Source: Clostridiisalibacter paucivorans DSM 22131 (GTDB lineage Bacteria; Bacillota; Clostridia; Tissierellales; Clostridiisalibacteraceae). Taken from it: a stretch of DNA of 43,519 nt. A program made the position numbers and the translations under genes. The stretch is taken from positions 1 to 43,519 of the forward strand of contig NZ_JHVL01000029.1 in NCBI RefSeq assembly GCF_000620125.1, written 5' to 3'. Positions 13,749 through 22,617 of this stretch are shown here, piece after piece. Each line of letters starts with the position of its first letter. Within the stretch, counting starts at the first letter, position 1. Under the pieces are notes generated by a model that was not told where the DNA came from, did no database searches, and saw only the letters and a list, made by a program, of their open reading frames with translations.

Positions 13749-14390
13749 TTATTCATCCTCATCATCTAATGCAGATAATACTTGAGCCATCTTAGCCATA
13801 TCTTTAATTTTGCTTATACTTTTGGTGTCTTCTCCAACAATAAGAGGCGCAAATTTTTCTATCATATCTTCTAGTGCTAACTCTTTTTTACCATCTTGTA
13901 AAGTTTTAATCCCTTCAATTAATCCTTTATATTTGTCTATATTAAATGCAATCTCTATTATTGGATATATACTCTTTATATTACTCTGTGGAAAATCTTC
14001 ATCAAGGATATCTATTATTTTTTCAATTCTTTTATTTTTAGATAAAGTAGTATTAATTTTTATGGGGTTATTATCTTTTTTTACTTTAACTATTTCCATT
14101 AGATTGATTGATTTGTCAATTGTATCATAGATAGGTATAAATACTTCCATCAAATTGACCATGGGTTCAGGAAGATAAGGTCCTATTCTTCTTACTGTAT
14201 GTAGTTTATGGTGTAAATCATTGATGCTATTTATGCCAAGTTTGCTTTGAATAGATTGAAAAGCTGGAAAAATATCTTTTTTAAGTAGAGGAATTGAGAT
14301 AATAACTAATGGTAATAGTGGGAAAGGAGGGGTCTTGGTTTTTAAATTTGAAACAGGTTTATTATTTTGTAAAGGTACTAATTCATTCAT
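13749..14390 (-). CDS. Hypothetical protein, 213 aa
   Basis: I do not recognise this family. A proline-containing hydrophobic stretch (PPFPLLPLVIISIPLL, residues 21-36) could be a membrane-associated segment near the N-terminus. The rest is mostly helical and charged, and it ends in an acidic tail (ALDDEDE). The start ATG follows a strong AGGAGG on the minus strand. It is divergent from a second unknown gene with about 220 bp between them. Its location among spore coat and SpmAB genes makes a sporulation role possible, but nothing in the sequence proves it. Confidence 0.7.
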   Translation of the reverse strand: MNELVPLQNNKPVSNLKTKTPPFPLLPLVIISIPLLKKDIFPAFQSIQSKLGINSINDLHHKLHTVRRIGPYLPEPMVNLMEVFIPIYDTIDKSINLMEIVKVKKDNNPIKINTTLSKNKRIEKIIDILDEDFPQSNIKSIYPIIEIAFNIDKYKGLIEGIKTLQDGKKELALEDMIEKFAPLIVGEDTKSISKIKDMAKMAQVLSALDDEDE

Positions 14391-14609
14391 TATACTACCT
14401 CCTTTTAAAGGCGATTTATATACAATGCTTACATTTCATATTATGCTAAAAGATAAAATGTGTTACATAAAATTTTTAATATACTAATTATGTTTTAATC
14501 AATATCACTACTTTAATAGCATTTATCCTAAAGAGTAATATACTTTAAATATGTAACATATGTATTAATAGTTAGTATATTAAACTAAAAAATAAGGGAG
14601 GAATTGTCT

Positions 14610-14966
14610 TTGAGAAGAAGGAGAAGAGATATGGATAAAAACGTAAATAATCACAAGAATGCAAATGTTGAAAATGATAAAAAGAACATACCTGATATGG
14701 AGAAGGTAATAGAAAAATTTAAAGAAACTGCAAATCCTAATGAAGAACAGATGGGAAAACTTAAAGATATGGCAGATAAATATTCTGGAAAATCAGAAGA
14801 TGAATTATTTATTGAGATAATAAATCTCAATAAAAAATTATCAGAAGGAGAAAATAAAGAAGAATTTATGAAGAAAATAAAAAAATTACAAAGAATAAGG
14901 CCTTTATTAAATGATGATCAGAAAAAAAAGCTAGATAAAATTTTAAAAGTTATAAAAGAATCATGA
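14610..14966 (+). CDS. Hypothetical charged helical protein, 118 aa
   Basis: A highly charged, predicted all-helical protein with an arginine-rich start (RRRRRDMDK) and a C-terminal half of helical repeats (MADKYSGKSEDELF, KIKKLQRIRPLLNDDQKKKL). Similar short proteins occur in clostridial genomes, but I know no function. TTG 14610 is the chosen start, 8 nt after GGGAGG; the in-frame TTG at 14604 is too close to the ribosome site. There is no signal peptide, cysteine or membrane segment. It may bind nucleic acid through the basic N-terminus, but that is only inference. The next gene, an enhancer-binding regulator, follows about 70 nt later. Confidence 0.7.
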   Translation: MRRRRRDMDKNVNNHKNANVENDKKNIPDMEKVIEKFKETANPNEEQMGKLKDMADKYSGKSEDELFIEIINLNKKLSEGENKEEFMKKIKKLQRIRPLLNDDQKKKLDKILKVIKES

Positions 14967-15037: not shown

Positions 15038-16888
15038 ATTTTTAAGGATAGGGACATAATAAATAAGTTTACAGATATTATGTCAGAAGGGATAATATTT
15101 ATAGATAGGGAAGGTAAGATACAATTATATAATCAAAAATCTAAGGAAATTTTTGGGATAATATATAATGAGGGTAGAGGTCATAAAAGGGGAAGGATAG
15201 AAGATGGAGATATAGTTATTATAGCAAATAATAACTTAGGTAAAGATGATGGAAAACTAACGACAGATGATTTGAAGATTATAGGAATAGACAATGAAGA
15301 TATAGATATAGGAGATGCTGTTATAGGGATAGGGGTTTATGGGAGCGGACATGTAGATTCTATGGTTAAATATATGAAGGGGCAAAAAAAGGGTAATAAT
15401 ATGTATTTAAACTATAGAATTTCAGACAAAAACATTGAAGTTGTAATAGATTTTAGAAATAAAATTATAGATATTATTTTAAATGGAGAACACTTTTTAA
15501 TGGAATATATAAATGCCATAGGACATATGTTATTGTTAGATAGTAAATGTGATAAAGTTAAATTTTACCAAGCCAAAGGATATACGATAAGAAAGGAAAG
15601 CATAAAGGATATATTGACTGGAAAGGAATATATGGCAAAGGGGAAAAACTCAGATATATTGGATGTGATAGGCAATGATATATTTGAAGTTCATGGATAT
15701 ATAGAAGCTATGAGAGAATTCTATGAAGTAGCTAGAGGTAAGGAATTATCCTATAAAGATAAATTTATAGAGATAAATGGTAGACCTACATTATGTTCAT
15801 TGGTACCTATAGATAGAGACAATATAAGGATTGGGGCATTATTAAAGGTCAAAGATATATCAGAGCTAAAAAGAATAACAAAGGAAAGAGATGAAGCATT
15901 GATAAAGCTTCAAAATATAGAAAAAAGGTTAGAAGAAAATGATTATAGCATGTTTTTTCCAAATGTAATCGGTGACAGCATCATAATGCAAAGATTAAAA
16001 GAATTAGCCTATAGAGCATCTAAGACTAACTCTACACTGCTGATTTTAGGAGAGAGTGGAACGGGAAAGAGTTTATTGGCTAAAGAAATTCATGATGCTA
16101 GTTACAATAAAGATATGCCATTTATCCATGTAAACTGTGGATCAATACCAGAAAATCTTATAGAAAGTGAGTTATTTGGATATGAAGGGGGGGCATTTAC
16201 TGGGGCAAAATCTACTGGTAAAATAGGATTTTTTGAAATGGCTCAGGGAGGAACTATATTTTTAGATGAAGTAGGCGAGTTGTCATTGGCTATGCAAGTA
16301 AAATTGTTACAGTTTTTACAAGATAAGAGTTTTTATAGAGTTGGTGGAAATAAAAAGGTAAATGTAGATGTTAGAATAATGGCAGCTACAAATAAAAATC
16401 TAGAAAATGAAGTTATTGAAGGAAAGTTTAGAGAAGATTTGTTTTATAGAGTGAATGTTTTTCCTATATATATTGCTCCATTGAGGGAACATAAACAGGA
16501 TATTTATCAATTAGTTTGTCATCTATTACCCAAGATATGTATAAAAATAGGCTGTGAAGAAAAAAGAATATCATCTGAAGCTATAAATAAGCTAGTTGAA
16601 TATGATTGGCCAGGAAATATAAGAGAGTTAGAAAATGTATTAGAGAGATCAGTTAACTTCTCTGAGTCAAATATAATATTGTCAGATCATATAAAAATAT
16701 TGAATAAAAGATATAATAAAAATATTGAAAAACATATATCCACAATGAAAGATATAGTTATGGATGCTGAAAAAAATGCATTAATAAATGCATTAAATGC
16801 AACTAATGGAAATAAGAAAAAGGCTATGAGAATGTTGGGGATGGGAAAAACGAGTTTCTATGATAAATTAAAAAAATACAAAATATGA
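15038..16888 (+). CDS. Sigma-54-dependent enhancer-binding regulator (PAS, AAA+, Fis HTH)
   Basis: A transcriptional activator of RNA polymerase containing sigma-54. A PAS-like sensory segment at the N-terminus (SEGIIFIDREGKIQLYN) leads into a long unusual sensor region. The AAA+ domain has Walker A GESGTGKS, the intact GAFTGA loop that contacts sigma-54, Walker B GGTIFLDEVGE and the R-finger region. A Fis-type HTH ends the protein (NGNKKKAMRMLGMGKTSFYDKL). The start is unclear. ATG 15080 has no ribosome site and cuts the PAS domain short, whereas AGGAG at 15024-15028 points to ATT 15038, which adds F-K-D-R-D-I-I-N-K-F. It probably controls the lysA operon downstream. From ATG 15080 it has 602 residues. 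Confidence 0.88.
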   Translation: MFKDRDIINKFTDIMSEGIIFIDREGKIQLYNQKSKEIFGIIYNEGRGHKRGRIEDGDIVIIANNNLGKDDGKLTTDDLKIIGIDNEDIDIGDAVIGIGVYGSGHVDSMVKYMKGQKKGNNMYLNYRISDKNIEVVIDFRNKIIDIILNGEHFLMEYINAIGHMLLLDSKCDKVKFYQAKGYTIRKESIKDILTGKEYMAKGKNSDILDVIGNDIFEVHGYIEAMREFYEVARGKELSYKDKFIEINGRPTLCSLVPIDRDNIRIGALLKVKDISELKRITKERDEALIKLQNIEKRLEENDYSMFFPNVIGDSIIMQRLKELAYRASKTNSTLLILGESGTGKSLLAKEIHDASYNKDMPFIHVNCGSIPENLIESELFGYEGGAFTGAKSTGKIGFFEMAQGGTIFLDEVGELSLAMQVKLLQFLQDKSFYRVGGNKKVNVDVRIMAATNKNLENEVIEGKFREDLFYRVNVFPIYIAPLREHKQDIYQLVCHLLPKICIKIGCEEKRISSEAINKLVEYDWPGNIRELENVLERSVNFSESNIILSDHIKILNKRYNKNIEKHISTMKDIVMDAEKNALINALNATNGNKKKAMRMLGMGKTSFYDKLKKYKI

Positions 16889-16890
16889 TA

Positions 16891-16908
16891 TCCGCATATA
16901 CGGAAAAA
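16891..16908 (+). promoter_or_regulatory. Putative enhancer (UAS) site 1
   Basis: TCCG-N6-CGGA with an A-rich flank, 230 bp upstream of the sigma-54 -24 element and 3 nt past the regulator's stop. It shares its pattern with site 2 exactly 100 bp away, as expected for paired enhancer-binding-protein sites. Confidence 0.5.
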
Positions 16909-16990
16909 TTCCTTTAAAAAGGAAAAATGCAAAAAGTCAGTTCAATAGTAGAGTATCAAGTATAATATTAAAATACAAACTATAAATAAG

Positions 16991-17008
16991 TTCGCTAAAA
17001 CGGAAAAT
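16991..17008 (+). promoter_or_regulatory. Putative enhancer (UAS) site 2
   Basis: TTCG-N6-CGGAA with an A-rich flank, 130 bp upstream of the -24 element. It matches site 1 at the conserved TYCG and CGGAAAA positions. Ten helical turns separate the two, which places both on the same DNA face. Confidence 0.5.
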
Positions 17009-17038
17009 ATTTAGTTTGTTATGAAAGTTTTAATATGG

Positions 17039-17076
17039 AAATACTGGCATGATAAAAATACATGTCAGTATTTTTA
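17039..17076 (+). terminator. Terminator of the regulator transcript
   Basis: AAATACTG-g-CATG (17039-17051) pairs with CATG-t-CAGTATTT (17061-17073), and a T-rich tail follows. It lies between the enhancer sites and the sigma-54 promoter, so the regulator and lysA are separate transcription units. Confidence 0.75.
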
Positions 17077-17120
17077 TGTAGTATAGATAAGATTGAATAA
17101 ATTTATAAAATTATTAATAT

Positions 17121-17136
17121 TGGCATGTGAATTGCA
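17121..17136 (+). promoter_or_regulatory. Sigma-54 (-24/-12) promoter for lysA-spmAB-carboxypeptidase
   Basis: TGGCAT (17121-17126), 5 nt, then TTGCA (17132-17136) matches the consensus TGGCAC-N5-TTGCW with one mismatch and exact spacing. The predicted transcript starts near 17147, about 30 nt before the lysA ATG. An intact enhancer-binding regulator lies immediately upstream. Confidence 0.8.
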
Positions 17137-17176
17137 CAATATAGTGATACAGAAAACTATTGAAAAGGGTGATTAC

Positions 17177-18460
17177 ATGTCATATATTAATAATGGAAAT
17201 AATCTAGTATTTGGAGGATGTGATACGGTAGCGTTAGCTAAAAAATATGGTACTCCACTATATGTGGTAGATGAAAATTACATAGTGGAGAGATGTGAGG
17301 AAATTAAAGAAAGTTTTTTATATAAATATAAAAATACTAATGCTGTTTTTGCCAGCAAGGCATTTTTGCCATTAGCTATGTGTAAATTGATAGCAAAACA
17401 GGGTATAGGATTAGATGTGGTGTCTGGTGGGGAGCTTTATACAGCTATAAAGGCAAATTTTCCATTGGAAAAAATAATATTTCATGGAAATAATAAGACT
17501 GAAGATGAGCTCTATATGGCAATAAAACATGATGTAGGTAGAATTATAGTAGATAATGAATATGAATTGGAATTAATAGATAGTATTTCTAAAAGGTTAG
17601 ATAAAAGAGTAAAGATACTGTTTAGGGTTACTCCTGGGGTAAATAGTCATACACATGAGTATATAACTACAGGGCAAAAGGATTCTAAATTTGGAATATC
17701 ATTGTCGGATGATATTATATTTGAGACTATTAGAAAGACTAAGGTATTAGAAAAAGTAGACTTGATGGGATTTCATTTTCATGTAGGTTCACAATTATTG
17801 GATAATGAATCTCATTTAAAGGCACTAGATATTGTAACAGAACTTATGTATCAGTCGCTAAAAAGACTTGATTTTGTTACTAGAGAGTTAAATTTAGGTG
17901 GAGGATTTGGTATCAAATATGCTTTTGGGGAAGACAGAAAACCTGTTAGTTATTTTGTAGATGCTATGATGGATAAATTATACGAGAATTGTAAGAAAAT
18001 GAATATAGAAGTACCAAGTACTGCAATAGAGCCAGGAAGATGGCTAGTTGGAGAGGCTGGAATAACTCTTTATAAGATAGGTGCAATAAAGAGTATACCA
18101 GAAATAAGGACTTATGCCTCTGTGGATGGAGGTATGACTGACAATTTAAGGCCTGCTTTGTATGGGGCGAAATATGAGGCTGTTATTGCCAATAAAGTCA
18201 ATGAAAAAAAAGTAAAGAAAGTGACTGTAGCTGGCAAATGTTGTGAATCGGGAGATATATTAATAAAAGATTTAGAAGTGCCAGAAATAGAATCAGGAGA
18301 TATATTGGCAGTATTTAGTACTGGGGCCTATAATTATTCTATGGCCAATAATTACAATAAAATAACAAAGCCAGCTGTAGTTATGGTAAATAAGGGGAGG
18401 GACAGGCTAATAGTTAAAAGGGAGACATATGAAGATTTGTTGAGAAATGAGCTATATTAA
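17177..18460 (+). CDS. lysA: Diaminopimelate decarboxylase
   Basis: A 427-residue PLP enzyme of the alanine-racemase-like fold type III. It converts meso-diaminopimelate to lysine and CO2. The PLP lysine is in VFASKAF near the N-terminus, and HFHVGSQ, GGGFG and EPGRWLV follow. The dimer-contributed cysteine is in GKCCESGD, with ALYGAKYE and FSTGAYNY nearby. Start ATG 17177 follows AAAAGGGTGAT and lies after the sigma-54 promoter; an in-frame TTG at 17093 lies upstream of that promoter and is not used. It heads an operon with spmA, spmB and an LD-carboxypeptidase. Related decarboxylases act on other substrates, but the motifs fit LysA. Confidence 0.9.
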   Translation: MSYINNGNNLVFGGCDTVALAKKYGTPLYVVDENYIVERCEEIKESFLYKYKNTNAVFASKAFLPLAMCKLIAKQGIGLDVVSGGELYTAIKANFPLEKIIFHGNNKTEDELYMAIKHDVGRIIVDNEYELELIDSISKRLDKRVKILFRVTPGVNSHTHEYITTGQKDSKFGISLSDDIIFETIRKTKVLEKVDLMGFHFHVGSQLLDNESHLKALDIVTELMYQSLKRLDFVTRELNLGGGFGIKYAFGEDRKPVSYFVDAMMDKLYENCKKMNIEVPSTAIEPGRWLVGEAGITLYKIGAIKSIPEIRTYASVDGGMTDNLRPALYGAKYEAVIANKVNEKKVKKVTVAGKCCESGDILIKDLEVPEIESGDILAVFSTGAYNYSMANNYNKITKPAVVMVNKGRDRLIVKRETYEDLLRNELY

Positions 18461-18513
18461 TAGGGGGTGATAAATATTATTTTCAAGAACAAAATAAAAG
18501 GAGGAATTAAACA

Positions 18514-19140
18514 ATGATTAATGTTATATGGTTATTGATGATTGTAGTTGGGGTCGTTGTTGGGGCTATAAATGGAAACCTTGAAGCCGTTACTCAAGCT
18601 GCAATGGATTCTGCAAATCTAGGTGTTGAGTTGTCTTTAGGATTAATAGGAATAATGGCATTATGGCTTGGAATAATGAAGATTGCAGAAGATAGTGGTA
18701 TGATCCAAGGATTAGCTAAATTATTAAAACCTATTATGGTTAGACTTTTTCCAGATGTACCCCCAGATCATCCTGCTATGGGAGCAATAATAATGAATAT
18801 GGCTGCCAATGTATTGGGATTGGGAAATGCAGCTACACCTTTAGGGCTTAAAGCTATGCAGGAGTTACAGGAATTAAATGATGAAAAAGATACGGCTACA
18901 AATGCTATGTGTACGTTTTTGGCTATAAATACTTCATCAGTTACATTAATACCCTCAGAGGCTATGGCACTGTTAGTAGCAGTTGGTGCAACTAGTAAAC
19001 AGGCTACAGCTATTATAGGGCCTTCAATTATAGCCACAGCAGTATCCACTATAGTTGCAGTGATTGCAGTAAAATCTTTACAGAGGCTAAAAGTTTTTAA
19101 AATGGATAAAAAGTCTACTAAAAAAGTTATAAATAATTAG
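18514..19140 (+). CDS. spmA: Spore maturation protein A (nucleoside-recognition domain)
   Basis: A 208-residue integral membrane protein with about five hydrophobic segments and a nucleoside-recognition (Gate) domain. SLGLIGIMALWLGIMKIAEDSGM, the conserved MNMAANVLGLGNAATPLGLKAM and NTSSVTLIPSEAM are hallmarks of SpmA. In Bacillus, SpmA and SpmB are needed for spore-core dehydration; their transport substrate is unknown. It starts after AGGAGG at 18500-18504, 53 nt behind lysA. It is coupled to spmB 12 nt downstream. Its placement under a sigma-54 promoter with lysA differs from the Bacillus dacB-spmAB arrangement. Confidence 0.9.
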   Translation: MINVIWLLMIVVGVVVGAINGNLEAVTQAAMDSANLGVELSLGLIGIMALWLGIMKIAEDSGMIQGLAKLLKPIMVRLFPDVPPDHPAMGAIIMNMAANVLGLGNAATPLGLKAMQELQELNDEKDTATNAMCTFLAINTSSVTLIPSEAMALLVAVGATSKQATAIIGPSIIATAVSTIVAVIAVKSLQRLKVFKMDKKSTKKVINN

Positions 19141-19152
19141 GGGGGGATACAT

Positions 19153-19689
19153 ATGTTTGTAAAGATAATAGGTGCTATATCTATGTATGCAGTACCAGTA
19201 ATGCTTTTGGGGATTCCATTATATGGATTTTTCAAAAAAGTTAAAGTATATGAAAGTTTTACTGAAGGTGCAAAAGAAGGATTTACAACAGCTGTAAGAA
19301 TAATCCCTTATTTAGTTGCGATGTTGGTTGCTATAGGTGTATTTAGAGCTTCAGGTGCTATGGAAGGTTTAACGACAATATTAAAACCTATAACTAGTTT
19401 GATAGGGATGCCAGCAGAGGTATTACCAATGGCCCTTATGAGACCTTTATCTGGTGGTGGAGCTCAAGGAATAATGAGTGATTTATTGAATACCTATGGA
19501 CCTGATTCTACTATTGGGCATATAGCATCGGTAATGATGGGTTCTACTGAGACTACTTTCTATGTAGTTGCAGTATATTTTGGCTCGGTAGCTATTAGAA
19601 AAACTAGACATGCCATACCTGCGGGACTTATTGCTGATGCAGCAGGTCTAATCGCAGCAGTTTTTGTGGCAAGGATATTTTTAGGTTAA
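19153..19689 (+). CDS. spmB: Spore maturation protein B (nucleoside-recognition domain)
   Basis: A 178-residue membrane partner of SpmA, with about four hydrophobic segments. It carries the family motifs EGFTTAVRIIPYLVAML, MRPLSGGGAQGIM and GSTETTFYVVAVYFG. The gene starts after GGGGGGA, 12 nt past the spmA stop, which suggests coupled expression. The protein is taken to form a complex or paired transporter with SpmA. A 38-bp palindrome follows before the carboxypeptidase gene and may reduce read-through. Confidence 0.92.
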   Translation: MFVKIIGAISMYAVPVMLLGIPLYGFFKKVKVYESFTEGAKEGFTTAVRIIPYLVAMLVAIGVFRASGAMEGLTTILKPITSLIGMPAEVLPMALMRPLSGGGAQGIMSDLLNTYGPDSTIGHIASVMMGSTETTFYVVAVYFGSVAIRKTRHAIPAGLIADAAGLIAAVFVARIFLG

Positions 19690-19700
19690 TATATATAATT

Positions 19701-19738
19701 AAAATTTAAAGATATATAATTATATATCTTTAAATTTT
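19701..19738. terminator. Perfect 38-bp A/T palindrome between spmB and the carboxypeptidase gene
   Basis: The sequence AAAATTTAAAGATATATAA (19701-19719) is followed directly by its complement (19720-19738). It folds into a long weak hairpin without a clear T tract. It may be an intra-operon attenuator, a 3' stabiliser of spmAB mRNA or a terminator. Confidence 0.55.
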
Positions 19739-19758
19739 GAATATTTGGAGGTATGTAA

Positions 19759-20688
19759 ATGTTAAAGCCAAAGGCGTTAGAATTTGGAGATACAATTGGT
19801 GTAATTGCACCTTCTAGTCCAGCATGGGATTTAGATATGGAGGAGGTAATAAATACTTTAAAAAATATAGGGTTTAATGCTGTCCTTGGAAAAAGCTGTT
19901 ATGAAACATATGGATATTTGGCAGGTAAGGATGATATCAGAGCAAATGATATAAATACTATGTTTGAAGATGATAATATTGATGGTATTATTTGTTTAAG
20001 GGGAGGTTATGGTACACCGAGGATATTAGATAAATTAAACTACGATATTATTAATAAAAACCCTAAAGTATTTGTAGGATATAGTGATATTACTGCTATA
20101 CATACTGTTTTAAATAATAAAAGCGGAATTGTAACTTTTCATGGTCCCATGGTTTCTAGTAATATGATAGATAAGTTTGACGAATTTTCTAAAAGATCTT
20201 TATTTAACACTATAATGAATACAGAGCCCATAGGAAGACTAAGTAATCCTAACGAGGAACAAATTAAGACATTGGTGTCAGGTAAGACTAAAGGCAATAT
20301 TGTAGGTGGAAATTTAGCACTTATAGCTTCAACTATTGGTACGCCATATGAAATAGATACAAAAAATAAGATATTATTTTTAGAGGATATTGGAGAAGAG
20401 CCATTTAGTATAGATAGAATGCTAACTCAACTTTATCATTCAGGAAAACTACAAGATGCCAATGGGATAGTTTTAGGAGATTGGGCAGATTGTACTCCTA
20501 TTGAGCATAAAGAAAATCTTACTCTATTACAGATATTTGATGACATAATAGGGACATTAAAGAAACCCACAATATATAATTTTAAATCTGGCCATTGTAG
20601 TCCTATGATTACCATTCCGTTTGGTGTGGAAGCCTATCTGGATGGAGAGCGTGGCTCCTTATATATTAGTGAGGGAGCAGTAATATAA
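19759..20688 (+). CDS. LD-carboxypeptidase, S66 family
   Basis: A 309-residue serine peptidase of family S66 (LdcA/MccF). LdcA removes the terminal D-Ala from murein tetrapeptides at the meso-diaminopimelate L,D bond. Visible motifs are GDTIGVIAPSSP, LRGGYG, the nucleophile serine in VGYSDITAIH, the glutamate of LFLEDIGEEP and the histidine of KSGHCSPM, the Ser-Glu-His triad. MccF-type relatives cleave peptide antibiotics instead, so the substrate is not certain. No signal peptide is seen, so it should be cytoplasmic. It ends the putative sigma-54 operon and has a strong terminator. Confidence 0.88.
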   Translation: MLKPKALEFGDTIGVIAPSSPAWDLDMEEVINTLKNIGFNAVLGKSCYETYGYLAGKDDIRANDINTMFEDDNIDGIICLRGGYGTPRILDKLNYDIINKNPKVFVGYSDITAIHTVLNNKSGIVTFHGPMVSSNMIDKFDEFSKRSLFNTIMNTEPIGRLSNPNEEQIKTLVSGKTKGNIVGGNLALIASTIGTPYEIDTKNKILFLEDIGEEPFSIDRMLTQLYHSGKLQDANGIVLGDWADCTPIEHKENLTLLQIFDDIIGTLKKPTIYNFKSGHCSPMITIPFGVEAYLDGERGSLYISEGAVI

Positions 20689-20711: not shown

Positions 20712-20749
20712 AACCCCGAACCTTTATTTATAAATAAAGGTTCGGGGTT
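20712..20749. terminator. Strong terminator after the LD-carboxypeptidase gene
   Basis: AACCCCGAACCTTTATTTA (20712-20730) and its exact complement (20731-20749) form a perfect 38-bp palindrome with a short T-rich tail. Confidence 0.85.
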
Positions 20750-20865: not shown

Positions 20866-22617
20866 TTGAAATATTTATTACAGAAAAAGATATTAATAGT
20901 TATTGCAATGGTAACTATAATTATGACAACTGGGATTTTTCTATATGTTGAAAAGGGTAATGAGTATGAAAAAATGAATTATAAAAAGTTTACAGAATTA
21001 CTAGATGAGAATAAGGTCGAGAAAGTGACACTAAGTTCAAGCCCCTATATCAAAGTAATATTAGATAGTGGGAAGGAGTTTAAAACACAGAATCCAAGGA
21101 TTGAAAATTTTAAGGAAAAGTTACTTTTACATGAGGTAGAAGTAATTGAAGAAGAATTTAGTTTTAATTCTAAAAATATAATATCTATATTTATATTTTT
21201 AGGAGTATTAGTTTTTTTTGTATATTATGGGAAAAAGGGTGGAGGAGCTAAATCTGCACAAAAAGAAATAACAGATATGGCCAATATAGATATTAATAAT
21301 GATGAAAAAAGGACAAGATTTAAGAATATTGCAGGAAATGAAGAAGCCAAAGAAAGTTTAGTTGAAATAGTAGATTTCATAAAAAATCCCGATAAATATG
21401 AAAAATATGGAGCAAGAATACCTAGAGGAGTTTTATTGTATGGTAGTCCTGGAACTGGAAAAACACTCTTAGCTAAAGCTGTTTCAGGCGAAGCATCAGT
21501 TCCTTTTTTTCCTGTAAATGGTTCAGATTTTATACAGGTTTATGCAGGTGTAGGAGCAAGTAGGATAAGATCTTTATTTAAAAAGGCAAGAAAGTTAGGG
21601 AAGGCTGTTATTTTCATAGATGAAATTGATGCACTGGGAAAAAATCGTAAAAATAGTATAGGTGGAAATGACGAAAGTGATAGAACTTTAAATGCCTTGT
21701 TGACAGAAATGTCAGGATTTAATGAAAATCAGGGTATAGTAGTTATTGGGGCCACTAATAGGATAGATATATTGGATAAAGCACTACTTAGACCTGGTAG
21801 ATTTGATAGACAGATAGAAGTGGGACTCCCTGATAGAATGTCAAGATATAATATATTGAAACTTCATGGGCTTAATAAACCTTTGGATAAAAGTGTTAAT
21901 TTAATGGAATTAGCCGATAAAACAGTATATTTCAGTGGTGCTAAGCTGGAAAATTTAATGAATGAATCGGCTATAATTGCTGCAAGAAATAATGATGAAT
22001 TTATAAATATGAGTCATATAGACAAGGCCTTCTATAGTATGCTTATAGGAAGTGAAAAAAAGGACAAATCATCAATAAGTGTCGATGAAAAGAGTATTAC
22101 AGCATATCATGAAGCGGGACATGCATTAATTAGTAAATTAATATGCCCTGAAAATAGGGTGACTAAGGTTAGTATTATCCCTAGTACTAAAGGTGCTGGA
22201 GGATTTACTATGAATATATATAAAGATAAGATGTATCAGACTAAAAGAGATATAGAAAAGAATATCATGGTATCTCTAGCTGGAAGGGCTGCTGAGGAAT
22301 TAGTGTTTGGAGAAGAAGATATTACAACGGGCGCTTCAAATGATTTGGAAAGAGCTACTATGTTAAGTCTAAAGCTGGTATCAAAATTTGGAATGGATAA
22401 AAATATGGGTCTTTTAAGCTATGAACGTTTATATGGAAACAATATAGTATCAAATGAGAAGATTATAGGTAGAGTCAAAGAAAAAGTTGAAGAGTTATAT
22501 GAAGAGACGAAGAGTATTATAAAAGATAATTTGGATATCCTTAAGGATATAGCAAAAGGGCTGATGGAATATGAAATGTTAGACGAATCACAGTTGGAAA
22601 GTATAATAAACACTTAA
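20866..22617 (+). CDS. ftsH: FtsH-family ATP-dependent zinc metalloprotease
   Basis: A 583-residue membrane-anchored AAA+ protease. There are two transmembrane segments (about 7-26 and 108-124) around a small extracytoplasmic domain. Walker A GSPGTGKT begins at residue 193, Walker B is [11 protein letters not shown], and the second region of homology ends RPGRFDR. HEAGH at 415-419 holds the zinc ligands and catalytic Glu. Family members degrade misfolded membrane and regulatory proteins. At 583 residues it is shorter than usual and lacks the longer acidic C-terminus; it may be a second FtsH copy. It starts at TTG 20866 after AAAGGTGA. Confidence 0.92.

Follow-up and report, generated by a model that had tools for sequence, protein, structure and literature searches.

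A lysA-spmA-spmB-S66 operon behind a putative sigma-54 activator gene in Clostridiisalibacter paucivorans: a candidate regulon for the salvage of diaminopimelate-containing wall peptides

Why should diaminopimelate (DAP) decarboxylase, two proteins named after spore maturation and an LD-carboxypeptidase be encoded together, behind the gene of a putative sigma-54 activator? The question is raised by a locus of the anaerobic bacterium Clostridiisalibacter paucivorans DSM 22131, which lies in the 43,519-nucleotide stretch of DNA that was analysed as a whole and is referred to here as the window. The initial annotation had described a sigma-54 enhancer-binding protein (EBP), two enhancer-like sites, a -24/-12 element and the four-gene unit lysA-spmA-spmB-S66, and the positions given for both sites, the promoter element and the five genes proved correct. 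In profile searches, the products of the four-gene unit match LysA, the Gate domain (two proteins) and S66, which bears out the unit.

The EBP gene (15080-16888, forward strand) encodes a PAS-like sensor region (roughly residues 1-290), an AAA+ domain with the GAFTGA loop and a C-terminal Fis-type HTH, whose recognition helix is GKTSFYDK. The loop is intact, as had been noted earlier, and with 225 bits for Sigma54_activat and 40 bits for HTH_8, the protein has the features of a sigma-54 EBP. Its closest NCBIfam model is PrdR, which is matched by the C-terminal part alone and with 384.5 bits compared to a curated cut-off of 795. The true start codon is probably the ATT at 15038, 14 codons 5' of the listed ATG, because orthologues carry similar extra residues: the frame 15038-15079 encodes FKDRDIINKFTDI, which resembles the N-termini of the orthologues, and it is preceded by GAGGAG. 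ATT start codons are rare. The predicted structure of the sensor region (pLDDT 86) gave weak PAS matches in a structure search, and reading the ligand from the fold was therefore dropped. The host genome contains one copy of rpoN. PAS domains are present in almost all clostridial one-component EBPs, according to the main text of a survey of these regulators (PMC6615313).

Downstream of the EBP gene, the -24/-12 element was recovered as the initial annotation had described it: the predicted promoter TGGCATGTGAATTGCA (17121-17136, forward strand) is one base off TGGCACG-N4-TTGCW and precedes the four genes, and transcription is expected to start near 17147. The genome contains seven matches to the pattern and the reversed control contains none; at least three of the other genomic matches also directly follow an EBP gene. 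With one mismatch allowed, the pattern is matched in 26 of 100 shuffles of the window, and the case for the promoter thus rests on its conservation: the 420 bp that follow the EBP stop codon contain a -24/-12 element in 42 of 80 other EBP loci, compared to 0.11 expected. A recognisable promoter or enhancer site after the EBP gene is absent in about half of the 80 loci. One relative (L033) has three separate -24/-12 elements, which precede lysA-M55, spmAB-S66 and opp. A hairpin with a U-rich tract (17033-17079, forward strand; -21.4 kcal/mol, z -7.1) is probably the terminator of the EBP transcript, which parts this transcript from the promoter of lysA; a strong 17-bp hairpin after the S66 gene (20712-20749) probably closes the operon. 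In addition, a long AT-only hairpin (19699-19740, z -4.9) is located between spmB and the S66 gene.

Two putative enhancer sites (UAS) of the form TYCG-N6-CGGA lie upstream of the promoter. UAS 1, TCCGCATATACGGA (16891-16904), is a perfect palindrome directly 3' of the EBP stop codon, 230 bp upstream of the -24 element, and UAS 2, TTCGCTAAAACGGA (16991-17004), lies 130 bp upstream of it. The starts at 16891 and 16991 that had been reported for the pair stand, but their exact 100-bp spacing is nothing special and was rejected as a signal, since the paired sites of relatives are about 19 to 171 bp apart. The window contains three strand-hits of the pattern compared to 0.08 expected, and none of 100 shuffles reaches three; the whole genome (3.25 Mb) has seven matching places, two of which are at the EBP-lysA locus. 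In relatives, the distance from a UAS to the downstream -24 element is 54-230 bp, and the first UAS often overlaps or closely follows the EBP stop codon. In the 420-bp stretch behind the EBP stop codon, 60 TYCG-N6-CGRA sites occur in 35 of the 80 loci, compared to 0.8 expected from first-order Markov shuffles, which also served for the promoter; the pattern had been broadened from CGGA to CGRA after viewing an initial set of relatives, part of which recurs in the 80 loci, and the loci are mutually related and in part repeat the exploratory set, so that these counts are not independent trials. Enrichment is confined to a spacer of 6, spacers of 3-5 and 7-10 in TYCG-Nx-CGRA yielding 0 to 2 across the 80 loci. 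TYCG sites accompany none of the 23 EBPs with a KTT recognition helix compared to 34 of 54 others (phylogeny not controlled); the helix of the EBP in the window reads KTS, and TYCG sites are present. TCCT-N6-AGGA was considered as the site of the KTT-helix EBPs and dropped, as it has no significant linkage to these proteins. The locus shares with its orthologues a palindromic UAS that precedes a -24/-12 promoter, the layout known for targets of sigma-54 EBPs.

Orthologues of the EBP with 55-61% identity were found in 13 of 60 same-order relatives at first, and more distant ones in others. The 80 other loci were fetched from named genomes with a profile of the EBP N-terminal region and belong mainly to Tissierellia and other Clostridia, including Alkaliphilus, Natronincola, Tissierella, Sedimentibacter, Lutispora, Anaeromonas, Geosporobacter, Caloramator and many uncultured Clostridia; their neighbours were annotated by clustering and by profile scans of representatives. 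The comparison that the initial annotation had proposed thus finds the EBP orthologue adjoining lysA or spmAB in other families as well, in addition to the conserved upstream elements given above. Among the 80 loci, lysA is a neighbour in 44, S66 in 29, an M20 amidohydrolase and an Opp/Dpp transporter in 26 each, SpmB in 22, SpmA in 21, an L-Ala-D/L-Glu epimerase type in 20 (below the NCBIfam cut-off), DapF (DAP epimerase) in 16, an M55 D-aminopeptidase in 14, NlpC/P60 with SH3 in 13, alanine racemase in 12, and a NagZ-type hexosaminidase and DAP dehydrogenase in six each; the last two, DapF and alanine racemase score above the NCBIfam cut-offs. A murein or DAP gene is found in 72 loci and none beside the EBP in eight, and LysA, DapF or DAP dehydrogenase is encoded in 54. 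By chance, lysA would be expected in an estimated fewer than one of the 80 loci, since it is single-copy in almost all genomes checked. Judged by this sequence comparison, the EBP-lysA-SpmAB-S66 arrangement is a conserved regulon and not a product of chance.

Our main reading, to which we assign a probability of about three in four, is that DAP or a DAP peptide is the signal for the one-component sigma-54 activator, which in response switches on the genes for peptide uptake, trimming and decarboxylation to lysine. That the unit may recycle DAP-containing wall peptides into lysine had already been suggested in the initial annotation, and this idea gains support from the degradative neighbours and the lack of DAP-synthesis genes: dapA, dapB, dapH and asd occur in none of the 80 EBP loci, which argues for salvage and not for lysine biosynthesis, and aspartokinase occurs in two. 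In the proposed sequence of events, the N-terminal sensor region would detect DAP or a DAP-containing wall peptide, and the EBP would bind both TYCG-N6-CGGA sites and, upon activation, loop to the sigma-54 polymerase at 17121-17136, thereby switching on lysA-spmA-spmB-S66. SpmAB would import the DAP peptide, S66 would cut the D-amino acid off DAP, and LysA would decarboxylate DAP to lysine, which could be used for protein or fermentation. The minimal substrate would be meso-DAP-D-Ala, which we infer to be the expected product of a wall endopeptidase; because the operon contains neither a gamma-D-Glu-DAP peptidase nor an epimerase, it would be the sole substrate processed by the operon itself, and the breakdown of larger wall peptides would depend on enzymes from other loci. 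An orthologue (68%) of the epimerase found at EBP loci is present on a short contig of the host genome.

The putative trimming enzyme, the S66 LD-carboxypeptidase (19759-20688, forward strand), matches both Pfam S66 domains with 137 and 126 bits as well as muramoyltetrapeptide carboxypeptidases in the PDB, and in the alignment the Ser (GYSD), Glu and His (GHC) residues are in place; we take their role to be the one known from the family. As no leader sequence was seen by eye, the protein is probably cytoplasmic.

The genes of the putative importer, an spmA paralogue (18514-19140) and an spmB paralogue (19153-19689), both on the forward strand, lie side by side and encode Gate-domain proteins about 200 and 178 amino acids long, as is typical of the SpmA/SpmB family, for which a survey from 2012 found no activity or structure data (PMC3533761). 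The SpmA protein is predicted to be all-helical. Small Gate-type genes occur as three pairs in the host genome, and in an SpmB tree calculated without Bacillus sequences, the operon protein belongs to an EBP-linked clade apart from the genome's other SpmB-type protein (support 100/100, long branch), whose pair is presumed to be the sporulation pair. The initial annotation had left the choice between a transporter and a linked spore step; the separate clade argues against the latter, and transport is the better, albeit unproved, guess. At EBP loci, 19 of 22 spmB genes have S66 as the next gene, and S66 also follows SpmAB of the EBP-linked clade away from the EBP in relatives (L174, L175). Of 19 loci with SpmAB, two also have Opp (Fisher 0.019 without control for phylogeny). 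A similar constellation is known from E. coli yjiH-yjiG-iadA, in which a small membrane-type pair (YjiG is annotated as Gate) lies beside a dipeptidase for an unusual isopeptide; unlike the S66 protein of the operon, however, IadA is isoaspartyl-specific, and the function of YjiGH is putative. Together, the clade split, the S66 linkage, the alternation with Opp and the position of YjiHG beside an isoaspartyl dipeptidase suggest that SpmAB takes up an unusual peptide.

It is quite conceivable, though not what we would bet on, that SpmAB is an exporter or a membrane partner of S66 and that import proceeds via another transporter, with the operon otherwise acting as proposed. Some EBP loci indeed have both SpmAB and Opp (L092, L102), and the SpmA model (pLDDT 75) matched no solved transporter or any solved fold in a structure search, which is also the reason why deriving a transport mechanism from it was dropped; on the other hand, SpmAB and Opp are nearly alternative to each other and the Gate pair YjiHG adjoins iadA. 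Conversely, it is tempting to speculate that the Gate pair is a DAP-(iso)peptide transporter, that the EBP directly senses DAP or a DAP peptide and that the sporulation SpmAB, which resemble this pair as members of one family, may carry a similar wall peptide during spore formation, a combined proposal that we regard as rather doubtful. A third Gate-type pair of the genome (L139, contig C4:121000-129000) is found, as judged by eye, beside an (R)-2-hydroxyacyl-CoA dehydratase activase-like gene, and E. coli yjiHG is likewise near genes of this kind (yjiL, yjiM).

A different role could be derived from lysA (17177-18460, forward strand; start taken as ATG 17177). Its product scores 466 bits against TIGR01048 (cut-off 297.9) and aligns full-length with solved DAP decarboxylases (E 5e-93), and it is the sole copy found in the genome; lysC-asd-dapA-dapB-dapH-aminotransferase are located together on another contig, without lysA. 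Lysine biosynthesis must therefore also use the promoter of the lysA operon or read-through. The EBP might thus sense lysine shortage and turn on the last biosynthetic step, with SpmAB and S66 being incidental, and it fits this explanation that a single full-length lysA is also present in 13 of the 14 relatives with the EBP that were checked. However, dapA, dapB, dapH and asd are missing from the 80 EBP loci, the EBP neighbours are degradative, and several relatives have lysA elsewhere and the EBP beside Opp, epimerase or NagZ genes; we consider such a switch unlikely and set lysine biosynthesis aside as the role of the operon. An assignment to sporulation, with SpmAB acting in cortex or core maturation and LysA and S66 adjusting DAP during cortex building, is highly improbable, as it has in its favour the SpmAB name and a family called essential for Bacillus sporulation (PMC3533761), whereas the genome's other SpmAB pair falls in a different clade (in the tree without Bacillus proteins), the operon pair goes together with S66 and DAP genes and the promoter is of the -24/-12 type.

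For the salvage of DAP peptides, the fate of lysine is of interest. The genome encodes the lysine fermentation genes kdd-kamA-kamB-kamC-kamD-kamE, all of which score above the NCBIfam cut-offs; they are directly preceded by another PAS-EBP gene and the -24/-12 element TGGCATATTGGTTGCA (L181, contig C1:75500-92500). The conversion of DAP to lysine and of lysine to fermentation products thus both appear to be under sigma-54.

A close known system is B. subtilis dpp-ykfABCD, in which ykfABC, located next to dpp, handles murein peptides (PMC2954226). As in this system, EBP loci contain an LD-carboxypeptidase, an L-Ala-D/L-Glu epimerase type, NlpC/P60, a peptide ABC transporter and M55 relatives of DppA; in contrast, the EBP clusters have predicted sigma-54 control with a dedicated EBP and DAP enzymes (lysA, dapF, ddh), and the SpmAB pair replaces or accompanies the ABC transporter. 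The operon in the window consists of lysA, spmAB and S66 alone and lacks the YkfB and YkfC types, and hence differs from the set of YkfA, YkfB, YkfC and a dipeptide transporter. The adjacency of EBP and operon is shared with the clostridial regulons of PrdR, OrdR, CdsR and others, as described in the main text of Nie et al. 2019 (PMC6615313), which deals with one-component sigma-54 EBPs of amino-acid catabolism and in which most UAS precede a TTGGCAT-N5-TTGCT promoter by 100-250 bp, likewise a shared trait; however, none of the 39 groups in its main-text Table 1 contains lysA, spmAB or S66. In marine Pseudomonadota, LysA is described as the key enzyme of DAP use, and lysA is DAP-induced and needed for growth on DAP as nitrogen source; in contrast to the regulon proposed here, a word search of that text finds no regulator and its model has neither sigma-54 nor SpmAB (PMC9602339). 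Literature searches, mainly of open-access main texts, found no previously described sigma-54 regulon that deals with DAP or murein peptides. If the main reading is true, a nutrient-sensing route would be added to wall turnover in anaerobic Clostridia, in which DAP of the wall would be turned into lysine and possibly into fermentation fuel under sigma-54. Furthermore, transport by SpmA and SpmB would become a hypothesis open to testing, and the EBP would be a candidate sensor of DAP whose putative operator is defined.

The surroundings of the operon show some further conservation. Two short genes upstream of the EBP gene (13749-14390 and 14604-14966) have no Pfam, NCBIfam or PHROG match, and a gene for an FtsH-like protease of 583 amino acids (20866-22617) follows the operon. 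In two MAGs (L022, L023), which lack spmAB at this position, the two short genes are kept 5' of the EBP gene, and the order is up213-up120-EBP-lysA-S66-FtsH.
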